Origin: Spirochaetae bacterium HGW-Spirochaetae-1
GTDB taxonomy: Bacteria > Spirochaetota > UBA4802 > UBA5550
Reading direction: 5' to 3'
NCBI GenBank assembly: GCA_002839375.1
Contig: PGXY01000010.1
Coordinates: 248,001 to 312,000 of the forward strand
Length of the DNA: 64,000 nucleotides
Both the position numbers and the translations under genes were made by a program. Below, piece after piece: positions 1,594-36,387 of this stretch (its first letter is position 1; every line of letters starts with the position of its first letter). The notes beneath the pieces are model-generated. The model saw nothing but the letters and a program-made list of their open reading frames with translations. It made no database searches and was not told where the DNA came from.

Positions 1594-3387
1594 TCAATTA
1601 TACAGGGCCTGGATTTCCTCATGATACTTCCTGGCCACGATATCACGCTTGAGCTTTAAGGTCTGCGTCAGGGTGCCGTTCTCCACGGAGAAACCGTCCC
1701 TGACCACGAGGAGTTTGCGCGGGATCTCGTAGCTCCCGTATTTATCCTCGAGCTGTTTCCGTATGCTGTCGTGGATAAATTGCATGACGACGGGAGATTC
1801 CAGCATGTCCTCGGGAGACGATTCAATGTTGTTTTTCTCAAGTATGCTCTGAAGCTGTTTCAGGTCGGGAACAACCAGTCCTATCGTGTAAGATTTGCCC
1901 TCACCGTAAATCATGATGTTCTCAATAAACGGCGCCAGGCGGATATCCTCCTCAATGGACGAGGGGAAGACATATTTGCCGTTTTCCAGCTTAAACTGTT
2001 CTTTTATTCTTCCGGTTATGTGAAGGAAACCTTCACTGTCGAATTTACCGCGATCGCCGGTGCGGAGTCCGCCGTCAACGGTCATAACAAGACGTGTCTC
2101 CTCGGGTTTATTGTGGTAACCCTTCATGACATTGGGGCCGTAAACCACGATCTCACCGTCGCCATTTTCCGGATCACCTTTTGATATGTCTATTTTTACC
2201 GTCACGTTATCTATAACCTTTCCGGCCGTTCCCAGTTTGAAGTCATAGGACCGGTTCATGGTTATACCCGGCGAGGTTTCCGTCATACCATAGCAGTCAT
2301 AGACCGGTATACCGATGGAAAAAAAGAACTCGGCGATGTTCCTGTTCATAATGGCGCTTCCTGTCATGGATCCTTTCAGTCTCCCTCCGAAACGTTTTCT
2401 TATCTGAAAAAAAATGAACAGGTCGGCGGCACGGTAAAGCACTGACTCAATGATGCCCGGACCATTATTTTCCCCGGCCCTGAATTTTCTTGCGGCGATA
2501 TCAAAAGCGGCCCGTGCCATGCGCGCGCGGAATACACCCCCGGACTGAATTTTTTCCATGATGCCCATGTATATCATGTTGAAAACCTTTGGTACGGCTA
2601 TAAGCACCGTGGGCTTCACCAGGGCGATGTCCTCGAGCACGGTTTTGATACTTTCCATGAAACAGATGCAGGAGCCCGTCAGAATCATGGAGTAGAGTTC
2701 CACGGTCTGGCCGAAGGTATGGGCCCAGGGAAGAATGGAGAGACTCACCTCGTCGCTGCCGATTTCAGGATAGGCTTTCCTTCCGCCGTGAATATTGCTC
2801 GTTATATTGCCATGGGATAGAAGGACTCCCTTGGGTTCACCCGTGGTCCCCGAAGTGTAAATAAGCATGGCCGTATCATCGGGACCGGGGTGCAGGGACG
2901 GACTGGATTTCATGGAACCCTGGATTTCCAGGGCACGCAGGGAATTGCCCTCGGTCCCTTCAATCAGGAAGACATATTCCAGTGTGGGTATGGAAAGTAT
3001 GTAATGGCGTACCTGGTGATAAATAGACAGGTCAGAGACAAAAAGGACCTTGAGTCCGCTGTCTTTTATTATATATTTCCATGTCTTCGGCAGCTCCGCT
3101 TCATACATGGGAATGAAACGTGCTCCCAGGCCGTAGGTGGCGAAAGCGGCAATGGCCCATTCGGGACGGTTGTTTGATATGATGCCCACGGAATCGTTCT
3201 TTCCAACACCGATGCCGGCAAGTCCGCTGCGGAGATTGTCCACGCGTTCACTGATCGACCGGTATGAGAGCCGGTTGTATGTTTTTGTTTTTTTATCTTT
3301 GATGCCGAAAAGCGGTTTTTGCGGGAAATCAGCCGCGCTCTTTTCAAAGAGTTCTACGAGATTGTCGGGTTTTTCATACACGTACAT
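1594..3387 (-). CDS. Long-chain acyl-CoA synthetase (AMP-forming), FadD15-like
   Basis: A 597-residue ANL-superfamily enzyme that activates a fatty acid with ATP and CoA. The P-loop motif YTSGTTGEPKG is at about residues 177-187. Downstream are the adenylate-binding YGMTETSPG motif and the TGDRG...ITGR hinge before the C-terminal subdomain. An earlier in-frame ATG lies at 3399, but the bases just after it (GGAGGAAGG) form a strong ribosome-binding site for the ATG at 3387, so I chose the shorter start. The gene stands alone between the intergenic repeat and the AraC regulator. The length is normal for the bacterial long-chain family. Chain length specificity is not readable. Confidence 0.92.
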   Translation of the reverse strand: MYVYEKPDNLVELFEKSAADFPQKPLFGIKDKKTKTYNRLSYRSISERVDNLRSGLAGIGVGKNDSVGIISNNRPEWAIAAFATYGLGARFIPMYEAELPKTWKYIIKDSGLKVLFVSDLSIYHQVRHYILSIPTLEYVFLIEGTEGNSLRALEIQGSMKSSPSLHPGPDDTAMLIYTSGTTGEPKGVLLSHGNITSNIHGGRKAYPEIGSDEVSLSILPWAHTFGQTVELYSMILTGSCICFMESIKTVLEDIALVKPTVLIAVPKVFNMIYMGIMEKIQSGGVFRARMARAAFDIAARKFRAGENNGPGIIESVLYRAADLFIFFQIRKRFGGRLKGSMTGSAIMNRNIAEFFFSIGIPVYDCYGMTETSPGITMNRSYDFKLGTAGKVIDNVTVKIDISKGDPENGDGEIVVYGPNVMKGYHNKPEETRLVMTVDGGLRTGDRGKFDSEGFLHITGRIKEQFKLENGKYVFPSSIEEDIRLAPFIENIMIYGEGKSYTIGLVVPDLKQLQSILEKNNIESSPEDMLESPVVMQFIHDSIRKQLEDKYGSYEIPRKLLVVRDGFSVENGTLTQTLKLKRDIVARKYHEEIQALYN

Positions 3388-21890: not shown

Positions 21891-21920
21891 TTGACAAATC
21901 AGGCCGTCTCTATGTATATT
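21891..21920 (+). promoter_or_regulatory. Promoter of tRNA-His
   Basis: TTGACA (21891-21896), an 18-base spacer and TATATT (21915-21920) lie just before the tRNA. A second TTGACA at 21842-21847 with TAATGT at 21866 may be a further upstream promoter. Confidence 0.6.
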
Positions 21921-21934
21921 GACACATCAAACAT

Positions 21935-22008
21935 GGTGGAAGTAGCTCAGTTGGCAGAGCCCAGGATTGTGATTCCTGTGGTCGCGGGTTCGAGCCCCGT
22001 CTTCCACC
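21935..22008 (+). tRNA. tRNA-His (anticodon GTG)
   Basis: A complete cloverleaf can be drawn. The acceptor stem GTGGAAG/CTTCCAC carries an encoded extra G at -1 opposite C73, the identity mark of tRNA-His. The D-arm is GCTC AGTTGGCA GAGC, the anticodon stem CAGGA/TCCTG with loop TTGTGAT, and the T-arm begins CGGGTTCGAG. CCA is not fully encoded. It is the attachment gene of the prophage, whose left end begins directly after it. Confidence 0.97.
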
Positions 22009-23551
22009 CATCGCGGGACAGATTCGAACCCGCATTTGCAGGGATGTCTGCGCAACGCAGCACATCCCTGTTTAGTATATAGCGGTAGGGAATTTTCCAC
22101 GATATGCTTGCTGCTGTGGCCTCATCGTTTATGGATATCGATTCCGCCATGCTTTTTAGCGCCTCGATGCGTTCCTCGCTGCCGGCAGATTGATACAGGT
22201 GCAGGAATTTCCTACACTTTTCAATGGTGTTTGATACCTCAAAAATAAAGGCCTCTTTATCCACTCTGATTTTCTGGTGTTGTTTTTCCAGCTGTTCGAT
22301 CTGTTTGCGGTTCTGCTGCATCCGGCGCTGGACGGTCTGCGGGTCGAATCCCTCATACAGCTTTTCGAGCAGGTCATCGTTTTCCCGTTCAAGTTTCATG
22401 ATCAATTTGGATATTTTCTCCTTCTCTTTCCCCTGATTTTTGTCCTTCACTTCAACGGAGTCCCTGAAAAGTTTTTCCAGGTACTGAGCGCCGTCATATG
22501 TAAGAATAAAACCTTCCAGAGCTTGATCAATGAGAAGAGAAAGTTTTTCTTCTTTGAATTGTGCCTTCAGGTAACGGTTTGTATAATAAATGTAATTTCC
22601 TGAGTTATGGGCGCCACAGTGCATCTCTCCTGTCAGGAGCCGATCCTTGTATCGCAGCAACCCGGAATAATCGAACTCAAAGGTCCGTGTGCGGGTCGAT
22701 TTATATTTAATTTTCAGTTTTTCGAGGCGTGATTCAAATCTCTCCAGGGTTATATATGGCTCATGGGTGCCCTGCCATATCTGGTCCTGATATTCGAAAG
22801 CACCGGTATAAAAGATGCTTGTCAACATGCGGTTAAGGGTCGTTTTGTTCCATTGCCCGCCACGGGAGGTTTTAAGACCCTGGTCATTGAGTTCATCGAC
22901 CAGATTTCGGATTGAAACAGTCCCATTGTCATATCGATCAAAAATATAATGCACCTGGTGTTTTGTGGCCTCATCGATGACGTGCTTTTTCTGGTCTTTA
23001 TCGTATATGTATCCAAGAGGCGGGGTGCATATTGGTGCGATCCCCTTTTTGGCTTTATAGAGAAACGTGGAGCGGGATTCAAAAGATATTTTGTCGCTCC
23101 AGTATTTTGCCATGGCCATATTGATGCCCAGGACGAACTCTTCAGTGTGATTCGAGTTCGCGTCAAATCGCTTACGGTCCTCGTAAAAATGGATCACGAA
23201 TTTCCGGTTTTTTACCAGATCCATGATGAGGACCAGGTCGTTATAGTTGCGGCTCATGCGGTCAGTATTTTTAAATACCAGGTGTGTGATATTATAGGTC
23301 CGGGCCGCCTTGATCATTGTGTTGAATATCCGGCGTCCTTCTTTCCTGGCTGATTCGGCAACGGTGAACTGGTGAATGATGCAAAGGTCCTGATCTTTGC
23401 AGTACTGTTCTGCCTGGGTTTTCTGGTTGGCCAGGGAGAGGCCCGTCTCTGCCTGGTCGAGGGTCGAGACTCGGTCATATACGAAGCAGGGGATTTTATC
23501 CCGGCAGGCGCTGAGATTATCAATGATTTGTTGCTGCAGGCTGATGTCCAT
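21947..23551 (-). CDS. Large serine recombinase (prophage integrase)
   Basis: A 534-residue serine recombinase. The resolvase domain has YDRVSTLDQAETGLSL with catalytic Ser29 and NTDRMSR. A recombinase domain follows (PPLGYIYD..., about residues 175-275), then a coiled coil rich in Glu/Lys/Gln (about 385-440). The usual zinc-ribbon cysteines are mostly absent: the GLLRCGxCG position reads GLLRYKDR, with one later Cys. It lies at the left end of the prophage. Its last ~20 codons lie antisense in tRNA-His, with the TGA at 21947-21949, so the C-terminus is host-encoded in the lysogen. Confidence 0.92.
   Translation of the reverse strand: MDISLQQQIIDNLSACRDKIPCFVYDRVSTLDQAETGLSLANQKTQAEQYCKDQDLCIIHQFTVAESARKEGRRIFNTMIKAARTYNITHLVFKNTDRMSRNYNDLVLIMDLVKNRKFVIHFYEDRKRFDANSNHTEEFVLGINMAMAKYWSDKISFESRSTFLYKAKKGIAPICTPPLGYIYDKDQKKHVIDEATKHQVHYIFDRYDNGTVSIRNLVDELNDQGLKTSRGGQWNKTTLNRMLTSIFYTGAFEYQDQIWQGTHEPYITLERFESRLEKLKIKYKSTRTRTFEFDYSGLLRYKDRLLTGEMHCGAHNSGNYIYYTNRYLKAQFKEEKLSLLIDQALEGFILTYDGAQYLEKLFRDSVEVKDKNQGKEKEKISKLIMKLERENDDLLEKLYEGFDPQTVQRRMQQNRKQIEQLEKQHQKIRVDKEAFIFEVSNTIEKCRKFLHLYQSAGSEERIEALKSMAESISINDEATAASISWKIPYRYILNRDVLRCADIPANAGSNLSRDGWKTGLEPATTGITILGSAN
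21996..22030. other. attL: prophage/host junction at the tRNA-His 3' end
   Basis: The host half CCCGTCTTCC joins the shared core ACCCAT (22006-22011), then the phage arm CGCGGGACAGATTCGAACC (22012-22030). The phage arm is the inverted counterpart of the arm at attR (61760-61777). ACCCAT recurs at 61784-61789, preceded by CCCGTC at the same spacing in both places. Assignment is by inference from this geometry. Confidence 0.7.
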
Positions 23552-32751: not shown

Positions 32752-32934
32752 ATGCGATATTTTTATCACATCCAGACCGAGAAAAAGCTCCGGGGCATAA
32801 AGCCCACGAGCGTCACCGGGCCATGGTTCCGGCGAACATATTTTTATGATCTTACGGCACCGGCACTGTTTAAAAAGGCGCTCAGTCAGCTGGGTAAAAC
32901 ACCGCTGAAATGCATCGCGGGAGGCCGGATATGA
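32752..32934 (+). CDS. Small basic hypothetical protein
   Basis: A 60-residue basic protein (RYFYHIQTEKKLRGIKP...). A GGGAGGGAAG ribosome-binding site lies before the ATG. Its stop overlaps the next ATG by four bases. Function unknown. Confidence 0.6.
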   Translation: MRYFYHIQTEKKLRGIKPTSVTGPWFRRTYFYDLTAPALFKKALSQLGKTPLKCIAGGRI

Positions 32935-33308
32935 GCGAAGACTACATTATTGTCCGGACTGAAACGTTGGACGGCGGTCTTTTTGCCGAGCGGATCAATG
33001 ACGCCATACAGGAATGCCTGGCGAATATTTACGATCCAAATGTGGAGCAGGAGAAGGTGCGGGAGGTCCAGGCGATTATCAAACTGAAGCCATCAAGCAG
33101 TGATTCCCGGAAAGTGGCTGTTTTTACCCAGGTGAAAACGAAGCTGTCCCAACCAACTCCCAGCGAGACAATCATTTTCGCCGGGACCAAAGATGGTGAG
33201 TATGTGGCGTACGAGCAAAATCTCAATCAGGGCAATTTCTCTTTTGATGGAGAGGGGGGAGCCGCAGGAGATAATATCGTAAAAATGAAAACAGGAGGCG
33301 GAGAATGA
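32931..33308 (+). CDS. Hypothetical phage early protein
   Basis: A 125-residue acidic protein. It has a beta-rich centre (VQAIIKLKPSSSDSRKVAVF, then ETIIFAGTKDGEYVAYEQNL) that resembles phage proteins of unknown function found before recombination or replication genes. It overlaps the genes on both sides by four bases. Confidence 0.65.
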   Translation: MSEDYIIVRTETLDGGLFAERINDAIQECLANIYDPNVEQEKVREVQAIIKLKPSSSDSRKVAVFTQVKTKLSQPTPSETIIFAGTKDGEYVAYEQNLNQGNFSFDGEGGAAGDNIVKMKTGGGE

Positions 33309-34021
33309 TAGATAGATCATTTGTTGAAAAAATAGAGGAACTCGCGGCACTCAAGACAATTGAGATTAACGGTGAAACATATTCAAGTAGAGTACTTGAA
33401 CTGGTAAAACCCGACTATGAACCGGCTCCTGAGCCTCTGCTTATAGGCACACTCACGGGCCTTGTGGATTATTTGCAAAATAATCACGACAACGCGAAGC
33501 AATATATGCTCCATGTTTTGTCCGAGGACGTGGTCAGGCTATACGGAGAATATGAACCCCAGTTCGGCAGGAGGAAGCACTATCTGACGGCCACTTACGG
33601 GATGAAGGGATTTAAATTCGGGCAGTATCATGATCAGGAATCGTTTATAATTCAATTACAGGCCATGTTTGCCGATGCCGGCGATAGAGCCGATGTGATG
33701 AAAGATGCCGGGAAAGTCGCTGGCGAGTCGCGGCTTAATCAGAGCGATGATGGTATTACACAGCAGGTAACGGTAAAAGAAAGTATTGGAAGGATGGTTG
33801 ATAAACCTCTCATGAATCCGGTTCAACTCGCGCCATATCGGACATTCCCTGAAATTGACCAGATCGTATCGCCATTTGTTTTCCGTATGAAAAAAACTGA
33901 CATGGGAATTGCTTTTGCATTGTTCGAGTGTGATGGGGACAAATGGAAGCTTGACGCCATCCATGCCATCAGGAATTACCTGAAAGAGAAACTCGGTGAT
34001 AAGGCCTCGATTATAGCATAG
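33305..34021 (+). CDS. Hypothetical phage protein, last gene of the early operon
   Basis: A 238-residue protein. The segment LIGTLTGLVDYLQNNHDN and the later RTFPEIDQIVSPFVFRMK are features I associate with unannotated phage proteins of this size, but no function is known to me. It could be a structural or DNA-binding factor. It overlaps the preceding gene (ATGA) and is followed by the non-coding GC-rich stretch. Confidence 0.65.
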   Translation: MIDRSFVEKIEELAALKTIEINGETYSSRVLELVKPDYEPAPEPLLIGTLTGLVDYLQNNHDNAKQYMLHVLSEDVVRLYGEYEPQFGRRKHYLTATYGMKGFKFGQYHDQESFIIQLQAMFADAGDRADVMKDAGKVAGESRLNQSDDGITQQVTVKESIGRMVDKPLMNPVQLAPYRTFPEIDQIVSPFVFRMKKTDMGIAFALFECDGDKWKLDAIHAIRNYLKEKLGDKASIIA

Positions 34022-34034
34022 AACCCAAGTTGTC

Positions 34035-34328
34035 TCCATGGCCCGGAAGGGTGGCGGAGGGAGGTCGGCAGCGGACCGCGGGGAGCTGCCGAAAGCGCGT
34101 AAAACGCGACACAAGACGCGGACGCCGGGGACGTTAAAATAAAATTTAAGTTTTTGTTGCACGGGATGTTCTGGATTAAGGTTCCGATATTCCCAGGATG
34201 GTCGGCCCGTCACGGCCGTGAATCATGGATAACGAGTAATATGCCGACGGCGGGGTCGGCCGGTCTCATAAAATACCTCCTTGTCTTGATATACGCCGGT
34301 TCTCCGGGGCGTTGTACCGGGGAGACAC
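34035..34328 (+). ncRNA. GC-rich structured non-coding region preceding the prophage tRNA
   Basis: The 34022-34328 gap has no credible reading frame with codon use like its neighbours and is much richer in GC than the flanks. Several perfect short hairpins follow one another: GGCAGC/GCTGCC (34067-34090), CGCGT-AAA-ACGCG (34096-34108), GCCGAC/GTCGGC (34243-34260), ACGCC/GGCGT (34293-34312). It runs directly into tRNA-Met. A phage-encoded structured RNA co-transcribed with the tRNA is my best guess. It cannot be matched to a family by eye. Confidence 0.4.
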
Positions 34329-34403
34329 AGCGCGGTGGAGCAGTCTGGTAAGCTCGTCTGGCTCATAACCAGGAGGTCGGGGGTTCGAATCCCTCCTGCG
34401 CTA
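34329..34403 (+). tRNA. Prophage tRNA-Met (anticodon CAT)
   Basis: A complete 75-base cloverleaf: acceptor AGCGCGG/CTGCGCT (one G-T pair), D-arm GAGC AGTCTGGTAA GCTC, anticodon stem TCTGG/CCAGG with loop CTCATAA, T-arm GGGGG TTCGAAT CCCTC, discriminator A, no encoded CCA. Position 1-72 is paired and the anticodon stem lacks three G-C pairs, so it is not a bacterial initiator. It could also be an Ile tRNA read after lysidine modification. The TOPRIM gene starts 15 bases downstream. Confidence 0.93.
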
Positions 34404-34417
34404 CATACGAAGGAATT

Positions 34418-35335
34418 ATGGCAAAGATAAAATTCAGAGAAATACGATTGAGCAAGGCAAATTTTAACCGCCTTGATATTATCAATCAGATTATTGAAGA
34501 ATATCAGAGTGACGGTTACACGCTCACCCTGCGTCAGTTGTATTATCAGCTGGTCAGCCGGGATATCATACCCAACAAACAGAGTGAATATGCCAAGCTT
34601 TCAACGGTATTAAAAGAAGGCCGCATGGCCGGCATAGTCGATTGGAGTGCAATAGAAGACAGGTTACGTAAGCCATCATCTCCTGCGTCATTTGATAGCC
34701 CGGAAAATATTTTACAGGCAGCTATTCAGCAATATGAATTACCGCGACAAAAAGGGCAGGATATATATCTGGAGGTATTTGTTGAGAAAGATGCTCTCAG
34801 CGGAGTGTTAAAACGTATTACGGAAAGATATCATGTCCCTATATCGGTGAACCGGGGATATGCCAGTGCATCGTCCATGTTTGACGCCTATCAACGGTTT
34901 TCATCTGCTATTGAACACGGGCAGTCTGTCAAAGTCTTATATCTGGGTGATTATGATCCCAGCGGTATAGATATGATCCGTGACATCCGGGACAGAATTG
35001 CCGAATTCGCCATGGGAGAGTATGGGTATTACAGCATCGAGGAGGCTTTGGTTGAGTTTAATTTTTCCATAGAGCCCATTGCTTTAACCCGAGAGCAGAT
35101 AAAAAAATATAAACCGCCTCCAAACCCGGCGAAAGTGACAGATCCACGGGCAAAAGAATTTATCAGGAATCATGGATCGAAAAGCTGGGAGGTTGATGCT
35201 CTCAGGCCTGATGTCTTGAGTAGACTGCTTGATGATGCGATCCGTAGTAATATAGACGAGGATGTATTCAATGAAGTAATCGAAAGGGAAGAAAGTGATA
35301 AGGTAAAACTTAAATCACTGATGAGTTATTTATAA
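34418..35335 (+). CDS. TOPRIM-domain protein, Spo11/TopoVI-A-like
   Basis: A 305-residue phage protein. An N-terminal helical or winged-helix part (LTLRQLYYQLVSRDIIPNKQ, about residues 36-55) is followed by a TOPRIM core. The conserved glutamate is in IYLEVFVEKDALS (about 117-129) and the D-x-D motif is YLGDYDPSGIDM (about 175-186). This fold occurs in Spo11/topoisomerase VI A and in phage proteins of unknown role. I see no clear catalytic tyrosine context, so nicking or topoisomerase activity is unproven. It sits in the replication region. Confidence 0.75.
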   Translation: MAKIKFREIRLSKANFNRLDIINQIIEEYQSDGYTLTLRQLYYQLVSRDIIPNKQSEYAKLSTVLKEGRMAGIVDWSAIEDRLRKPSSPASFDSPENILQAAIQQYELPRQKGQDIYLEVFVEKDALSGVLKRITERYHVPISVNRGYASASSMFDAYQRFSSAIEHGQSVKVLYLGDYDPSGIDMIRDIRDRIAEFAMGEYGYYSIEEALVEFNFSIEPIALTREQIKKYKPPPNPAKVTDPRAKEFIRNHGSKSWEVDALRPDVLSRLLDDAIRSNIDEDVFNEVIEREESDKVKLKSLMSYL

Positions 35336-35364: not shown

Positions 35365-36387
35365 ATGCGTTTTAGTTTTGAAAGATGGAATCTTATCAGG
35401 GCCAATGAACTCGGTCTCAAGTTTGACGACCTGGCCATAATTACATATTTCGTGGATTTCACCACTTCCGGAAAAATGGATTCTATCATACATCAGGGGA
35501 AAGTCTATTATTGGGTTTCCTATTATAATATCGTTAAAGAGTATCCCATGCTTACAATAAAATCTCGTGATGGGGTATATCGCCGGTTTAAGAAATATGT
35601 TGATGTTGGTATCCTGCATGCAGTTCTTGAGCCCGGTACACAACGACCACACTATTGCCTTGATCCTGATATGTATTTTTCTCTCCTCTCTTATACCTCT
35701 CAAGTGAACTTGCAGTCTGAAAAATCAATATCTGATGAATCTGGAAATAAGGGGAAGGATAAAGGGGTCGGATTTTTTTCCGAAGGTGTCGGAAATAATT
35801 CCGAACATAGCTCGGAGGAAAATCCGAACGAGGCTCGGAAAAATTTCCGAACAGATCCTACTACTATACATGATCCTATTACTATTGATCCGTATTGTAT
35901 AGTAACGCTCGCCCAGAACGACAAATTATATCAGCACTGGTGGGGGAAGTATTGCGAAGGAATCCCGGATAATGCTGAATATCGTGCGGCATCATACAGA
36001 AAATTGGTCGAGTTCGCGACGAAATACAAACCGAGCGTGGATCAATTGATATATGCACTCAAAGAGTCAGTCGATAAGGGACATGCCGGACATGATTATT
36101 ATCTCGCGGGAATTCTGAATAATATTAACCTTAACCGGTATGTCGATGCTGATATTCCGGTTGAATTACAGGTAGAAAACCTGGTTAAAAAGCGACTCAC
36201 CGATATGGACGAATATCTCCGCCATTATGAATTTGACCATCAGAACATGAAAGTACTCTATTCGCTTACAGGAATTGATGACGCATATATACGACGCATA
36301 TTCACAGGGGTTGAAGAGGACCTTGCACGTCAATGCCAGATAGATTATCAGTTTTTGGATAAATCTTTTTTACGGAAAACAGGATGA
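35365..36387 (+). CDS. Phage replication initiator-like protein (O/DnaD type)
   Basis: A 340-residue protein. The N-terminal ~110 residues contain a winged-helix-like part (ELGLKFDDLAIITYFVD, then SRDGVYRRFKKYVDVGILH). A linker rich in Glu, Asn and Ser follows (about 120-165), then a C-terminal helical domain. This layout is typical of phage O-like initiators that recruit the host helicase. The linker DNA repeats CGGAA-containing motifs, which in O genes often double as the replication origin. Lies between the TOPRIM gene and small late-early genes. Confidence 0.65.
   Translation: MRFSFERWNLIRANELGLKFDDLAIITYFVDFTTSGKMDSIIHQGKVYYWVSYYNIVKEYPMLTIKSRDGVYRRFKKYVDVGILHAVLEPGTQRPHYCLDPDMYFSLLSYTSQVNLQSEKSISDESGNKGKDKGVGFFSEGVGNNSEHSSEENPNEARKNFRTDPTTIHDPITIDPYCIVTLAQNDKLYQHWWGKYCEGIPDNAEYRAASYRKLVEFATKYKPSVDQLIYALKESVDKGHAGHDYYLAGILNNINLNRYVDADIPVELQVENLVKKRLTDMDEYLRHYEFDHQNMKVLYSLTGIDDAYIRRIFTGVEEDLARQCQIDYQFLDKSFLRKTG

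Follow-up and report, generated by a model that had tools for sequence, protein, structure and literature searches.

The prophage locus and its GC-rich spacer

The window, that is, the whole stretch of 64,000 nucleotides that we analysed, is a segment of bacterial chromosome carrying a prophage. The left end of this prophage is a serine recombinase adjoining a tRNA-His gene, its left half contains a pair of genes of PHROG 997 and PHROG 1029 that closes at position 34021, and its terminase, portal, head and tape-measure genes lie to the right of the region described here, which comprises:

32910-33308, plus strand: gene of PHROG 997, labelled replication terminator (PHROGs, E 1.7e-12)
33305-34021, plus strand: gene of PHROG 1029, function unassigned (PHROGs, E 9.4e-62)
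34022-34328, plus strand: GC-rich untranslated spacer of 307 nt (gene calls, composition and codon scores)
34329-34404, plus strand: tRNA-Met (CAT), CCA not encoded (ARAGORN and Rfam)
34418-35335, plus strand: topoisomerase-like gene of PHROG 6247 (PHROGs, E 9.7e-92), with its ATG 13 bases past the tRNA

The product of the PHROG 1029 gene is presumably DUF2303-like. The stop codon of this gene ends at 34021 and the tRNA-Met begins at 34329, the spacer and the tRNA being separated by 0 nt; the stretch thus runs straight into the tRNA-Met, as an earlier sequence-only reading of this DNA had stated, and we confirm the feature as a GC-rich, untranslated spacer that directly adjoins a phage tRNA. 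This phage tRNA is a tRNA-Met, and the tRNA beside the recombinase is a tRNA-His, reported as whole by ARAGORN. The recombinase frame (21936-23551, minus strand) terminates within the tRNA-His gene, so that its last codons would come from tRNA sequence. No attachment-site repeats of at least 12 bases were common to positions 21901-22100 and the window rightward. Where the upstream gene ends, there is also a promoter-like site on the minus strand (34010-34038, 10/12, extended -10), which would read antisense to that gene and which could be due to chance, with five sites found versus 2.7 expected.

Composition and coding potential of the spacer

The unusually high GC content noted from the sequence was borne out by comparison with its surroundings: the spacer has a GC of 0.57 versus 0.441 for the prophage, a level reached by 0.8% of the 307-nt windows of the prophage and by 4.0% of those of the whole 64 kb. 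This composition is uneven, with a GC of 0.68 at 34022-34128, 0.34 in an A+T-rich middle (34129-34190) and 0.59 at 34191-34328. GC-rich inverted repeats enclosing an A+T-rich core, close to genes labelled replication terminator and topoisomerase, might evoke a phage replication origin or another DNA element; however, the direct repeats are short and imperfect (12-14 nt) and form no iteron array, and the GC skew does not change sign nearby. We therefore set the origin aside and consider it highly improbable.

The reading frames of the spacer contain from one to five stops and score from -0.57 to -0.16 bits per codon under prophage codon usage, on a scale where 67 pieces of prophage genes average +0.21 (minimum -0.33) and the shuffled spacer averages -0.50 (sd 0.14). 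The earlier statement that the spacer has no plausible frame consequently stands for most frames, by stops and codon scores, but not for frame +0, which has a single stop and whose score of -0.16 lies within the spread of real genes. The ORF in frame +0 matched nothing in Pfam and nothing significantly in PHROGs (best E 0.048), and the longest plus-strand frame gave a single tblastn match in phages, with an E of 9, which we take as chance. Pieces of several frames were likewise without Pfam or significant PHROGs matches, and a hidden protein gene was accordingly discarded. The score of frame +0, together with the foreign composition, would fit a decayed gene remnant brought in with the tRNA and having no present role, an explanation that we regard as unlikely, because no tested frame significantly matches a known family and because chance open frames are common in GC-rich DNA.

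The ACCTCCTT motif and a candidate frame on the minus strand

The sequence-only reading had also pointed to ACCTCCTT, which is indeed present at 34275-34282, its single occurrence on the plus strand, and had identified it with the anti-Shine-Dalgarno core of 16S rRNA, perhaps by chance. Around 1.6 matches to ACCTCCTT or its complement are expected by chance in 64 kb, and the opposite strand reads as a start site:

34275-34282, minus strand: AAGGAGGT, complement of ACCTCCTT and a full Shine-Dalgarno sequence, with an ATG 5 nt later
34210-34269, minus strand: candidate 19-codon frame after AAGGAGGT, from the start-site pattern

The resulting arrangement, AAGGAGGT-ATTTT-ATG, spans 34282-34267 on the minus strand and is a strong, textbook-like start site. 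From this readout and the chance counts, it is at least as likely that ACCTCCTT is due to chance, or is an opposite-strand start site, as that it is an anti-Shine-Dalgarno sequence.

The minus strand might thus hold a small gene for a leader or toxin-like peptide of 19 codons, ACCTCCTT being just the complement of its ribosome-binding site. There are two such start sites in the window versus 0.21 expected, the second one opening a frame of 60 codons, and 20 of the 29 sites found genome-wide lead into frames 60 or more codons long. Against this, the 29 sites of the genome compare with 25 for a reversed control pattern, the 19-codon frame is among the seven shortest of the 29, and no promoter-like site is listed upstream of it on the minus strand, at 34283-34477. 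With regard to a type I toxin-antitoxin locus, which would pair a short peptide frame having a strong start site with an antisense RNA, the start site and a frame of 19 codons were observed; the putative peptide shows, by eye, a run of only about eight hydrophobic residues, short of the membrane-spanning segment of a type I toxin. We find such a gene very doubtful.

Predicted structure of the spacer

At least four perfect hairpins had been noted in the spacer; we found six, each of at least 5 bp, and the minimum-energy fold of the spacer alone additionally predicts a helix joining its two ends:

34065-34092, plus strand: 8-bp perfect hairpin, with the strongest support of any local structure (pair probabilities 0.58-0.99)
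34096-34108, plus strand: 5-bp perfect hairpin
34134-34149, plus strand: 5-bp hairpin of A+T pairs, within the A+T-rich middle
34203-34218, plus strand: 5-bp perfect hairpin
34243-34260, plus strand: 6-bp perfect hairpin
34293-34312, plus strand: 5-bp perfect hairpin, competing with the end-to-end helix
34031-34056, plus strand: 5' side of the predicted end-to-end helix (minimum-energy fold)
34294-34327, plus strand: 3' side of the predicted end-to-end helix, stopping 1 nt short of the tRNA (minimum-energy fold)

Six hairpins were reached in 2% of 500 dinucleotide shuffles (mean 2.4; P 0.02) and in 5.2% of 154 real GC-matched windows of 307 nt (mean 2.8). The helix joining the two ends has 23 pairs, split into segments of 7, 3, 6, 2 and 5, and was equalled in 2.5% of 200 shuffles (P 0.025) and in 5.2% of 77 real windows; both P values are per-test and derive from overlapping measures. 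The folding energy, in turn, is ordinary: a stability above that of shuffled sequence is expected of a structured non-coding RNA, and we obtained z scores of -0.62 for the plus strand, -1.16 for the minus strand and +0.62 for the spacer plus tRNA, with values from -1.39 to +0.76 for 110-nt sub-windows of the spacer. When the tRNA is included in the fold, a different structure wins over the end-to-end helix. The excess of structure over chance is thus marginal, and the predicted structure is at most suggestive.

Search for relatives and comparison with known RNAs

Blastn comparisons retrieved no relative of the spacer from 50,697 phage records (one match, E 1) or from 72,556 plasmid records (two matches, E 0.9 and 3). 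Neither the other related genomes, 58 in number (best E 0.004), nor 391 other genomes of the phylum yielded a relative of the spacer DNA, six of the latter containing short patches with E up to 0.01. The match at E 0.004, of 44 nt in genome G015, lies inside an ORF and was taken as chance; the remaining five matches (E up to 0.01, own genome excluded) are patches of 19-34 nt. Two exact patterns of 25-26 bases taken from the spacer were absent from IMG/VR. Likewise, two single-sequence covariance models (R1, 34052-34133; R2, 34191-34328) found nothing significant beyond their own source when run on 147 other genomes, on 38 loci outside the window and on 80 further loci, the sole other match having an E of 0.29 (locus L052); being built on one sequence entered twice, these models have a sensitivity barely above that of a sequence search, and stricter filters applied in the genome search. 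Closer relatives may exist in metagenome contigs. Our literature searches found no description of such an element.

The Rfam scan proposed in the sequence-only reading returned no family beyond tRNA, which was the only match at the gathering score; a permissive scan (E up to 10) added weak matches lying on the tRNA. On these scans, at both thresholds, we rejected membership of the spacer in GOLLD or ROOL. According to PMC12286853, GOLLD RNAs are often longer than 800 nt, with a conserved 3' region, and one studied member lies downstream of a Met-tRNA. The spacer is like GOLLD in being non-coding, prophage-borne and near a phage tRNA, and unlike it in its size of 307 nt and in having no Rfam match. 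The prophage location near tRNAs is also that of ROOL, which is described with an elaborate conserved structure and pseudoknots, whereas the spacer matches no Rfam family. The suggestion of a GOLLD-like large non-coding RNA is therefore not upheld, given the length of 307 nt, the lack of any Rfam match other than tRNA, a folding energy at the level of shuffled sequence and the lack of relatives in the collections searched.

The tRNA cluster of phage T4 holds stable RNAs whose function is unassigned, which are transcribed with the tRNAs and freed by tRNA processing. The spacer would resemble them as a phage sequence transcribed together with a tRNA and set free when the tRNA is processed. In a rival explanation, the spacer could be a structured phage RNA in its own right, some 300 nt long, its ends paired by a helix, that RNase P would release from the tRNA and that would act as other large RNAs near phage tRNAs do. 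The segmented helix of 23 pairs, the six perfect hairpins, the direct contact with the tRNA and a GC well over the prophage level argue for it, as does an unrelated spacer at another locus (L096) that, by eye, is likewise closed by a 10-bp stem just before a tRNA. However, the folding energy is ordinary, helix and hairpin counts are matched in around 5% of real GC-matched windows, another fold wins with the tRNA included, and there is neither a homologue nor an Rfam family in the collections searched, so that we hold a dedicated RNA to be quite unlikely. A new structured RNA is, in all, possible but unproven. Its boldest form, a new class of phage RNAs of about 300 nt with paired ends and a 3' end matured by RNase P at the tRNA-Met, perhaps end-protected and acting at induction, appears to us very unlikely.

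Organization of related loci

The nearest genomic relative of the PHROG 1029 gene (39% protein identity; L031) comes from a different family within the same taxonomic order and has a partner gene upstream that is PHROG 997-like by position and reading. It contains neither the spacer nor the tRNA, and an open frame lies instead around 50 nt downstream of the PHROG 1029 homologue. By eye, the N-terminus of the protein encoded downstream is like that of a winged-helix replication protein, and it may be the counterpart of 35365-36387 in the window.

Single-query searches of IMG/VR with the proteins of 33305-34021 and 35365-36387 retrieved no relatives; an alignment of the 33305-34021 protein did recover them. 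The space after the PHROG 1029 homologue varies among these relatives, being longer than 100 nt in 10 of 80, as gauged by the crude criterion of ORFs of 40 codons. At another relative, L102, around 560 bases with a GC of 0.65 follow the homologue (2703-3261), with no 40-codon ORF and no Rfam match. At L096, one of these 10 relatives, the tRNA lies 74 bases downstream of the homologue, beyond the stem-closed spacer mentioned above; this tRNA (2807-2895) was called Tyr (GTA), its anticodon arm is enlarged by what appears to be an inserted small hairpin, and a CAT anticodon is possible by eye.

None of nine IMG/VR loci had a tRNA ahead of the topoisomerase-like gene. Among seven GTDB and three phylum loci with this gene, one (L040) has a cluster of six tRNAs oriented against the gene, on the other strand, and two (L033 and L037) have one distant tRNA each. 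In Flavobacterium phage FPSV-S1, the topoisomerase-like gene is preceded by a 310-nt gap, which was rejected as a parallel, being A+T-rich and without a tRNA.

A proposed spacer within a rightward phage operon

We give about even chances to the explanation that the sequence is a lineage-specific untranslated spacer within a rightward phage operon, and consider an ordinary operon spacer more likely than a new large RNA. This reading is based on the tight co-directional gene layout with no intrinsic terminator, the prophage-unlike composition, the nearest genomic relative having neither spacer nor tRNA, the variable gap at this site, folding at the level of shuffled sequence and the lack of homologues. 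A pure spacer does not, on the other hand, predict the six hairpins (P 0.02) or a helix stopping 1 nt before the tRNA (P 0.025).

The tight co-directional layout (0 nt and 13 nt on either side of the tRNA), with no intrinsic terminator found on the plus strand at 33200-34700, suggests that a single message would run across the upstream genes, the spacer, the tRNA and the topoisomerase-like gene. RNase P cuts the 5' end of tRNAs during their maturation, and GC-rich hairpins often slow 3'-to-5' decay. We infer that RNase P would cut this message at 34328/34329 and that 3' processing of the tRNA would occur at around 34404, so that the upstream message would terminate in the hairpin-rich spacer and may be protected by it from exonucleases; the topoisomerase message would then start just ahead of its ribosome-binding site. 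Hairpin-rich 3' untranslated regions are known to slow message decay, and the spacer resembles them in its GC-rich hairpins at the predicted 3' end of the upstream message, although here this end would come from tRNA processing and not from a terminator. The spacer and the tRNA-Met, perhaps with the topoisomerase-like gene, were probably inserted together between the PHROG 997/1029 pair and the gene that follows it in relatives, as judged from the one locus with 39% protein identity. A dedicated RNA function is unnecessary to account for the data.

If the sequence is no more than an operon spacer, its significance is limited to the annotation of the prophage and to the variability, among phages, of the site after the PHROG 997/1029 pair. 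If a discrete RNA were made, it would be a short addition to the small and poorly understood set of large RNAs located next to phage tRNAs, and whether tRNA processing matures it could be put to a direct test.

The tRNA-Met and its counterparts

The prophage tRNA-Met shows 79% identity with the host initiator tRNA versus 70-71% with the two other host tRNA-Met. By eye, it has an A11:U24-type D stem, A1:U72 as its first pair, and an anticodon stem in which U-A takes the place of one G-C pair out of three. Read with the identity rules that separate initiator from elongator tRNAs, these features are consistent with an initiator that may have turned towards elongation.

Of 13 other genome loci, two (L045 and L048) have a tRNA-Met shortly upstream of the PHROG 997/1029 pair. 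Including these, we found counterparts in four prophages or phages, around 390-480 bases upstream of the PHROG 1029 homologue and apparently just before the PHROG 997-like gene:

L045, 2593-2664: tRNA-Met
L048, 940-1015: tRNA-Met
L108, 1493-1577: tRNA-Met
L197, 1515-1586: tRNA-Met

In IMG/VR, 9 of 167 non-identical loci, after a crude de-duplication, contained a tRNA, and 5 of the 11 tRNAs in them were Met. The tRNA-Met of L045, L048 and L108 share 60-65% identity with that of the window, and at this level they look like separate acquisitions.
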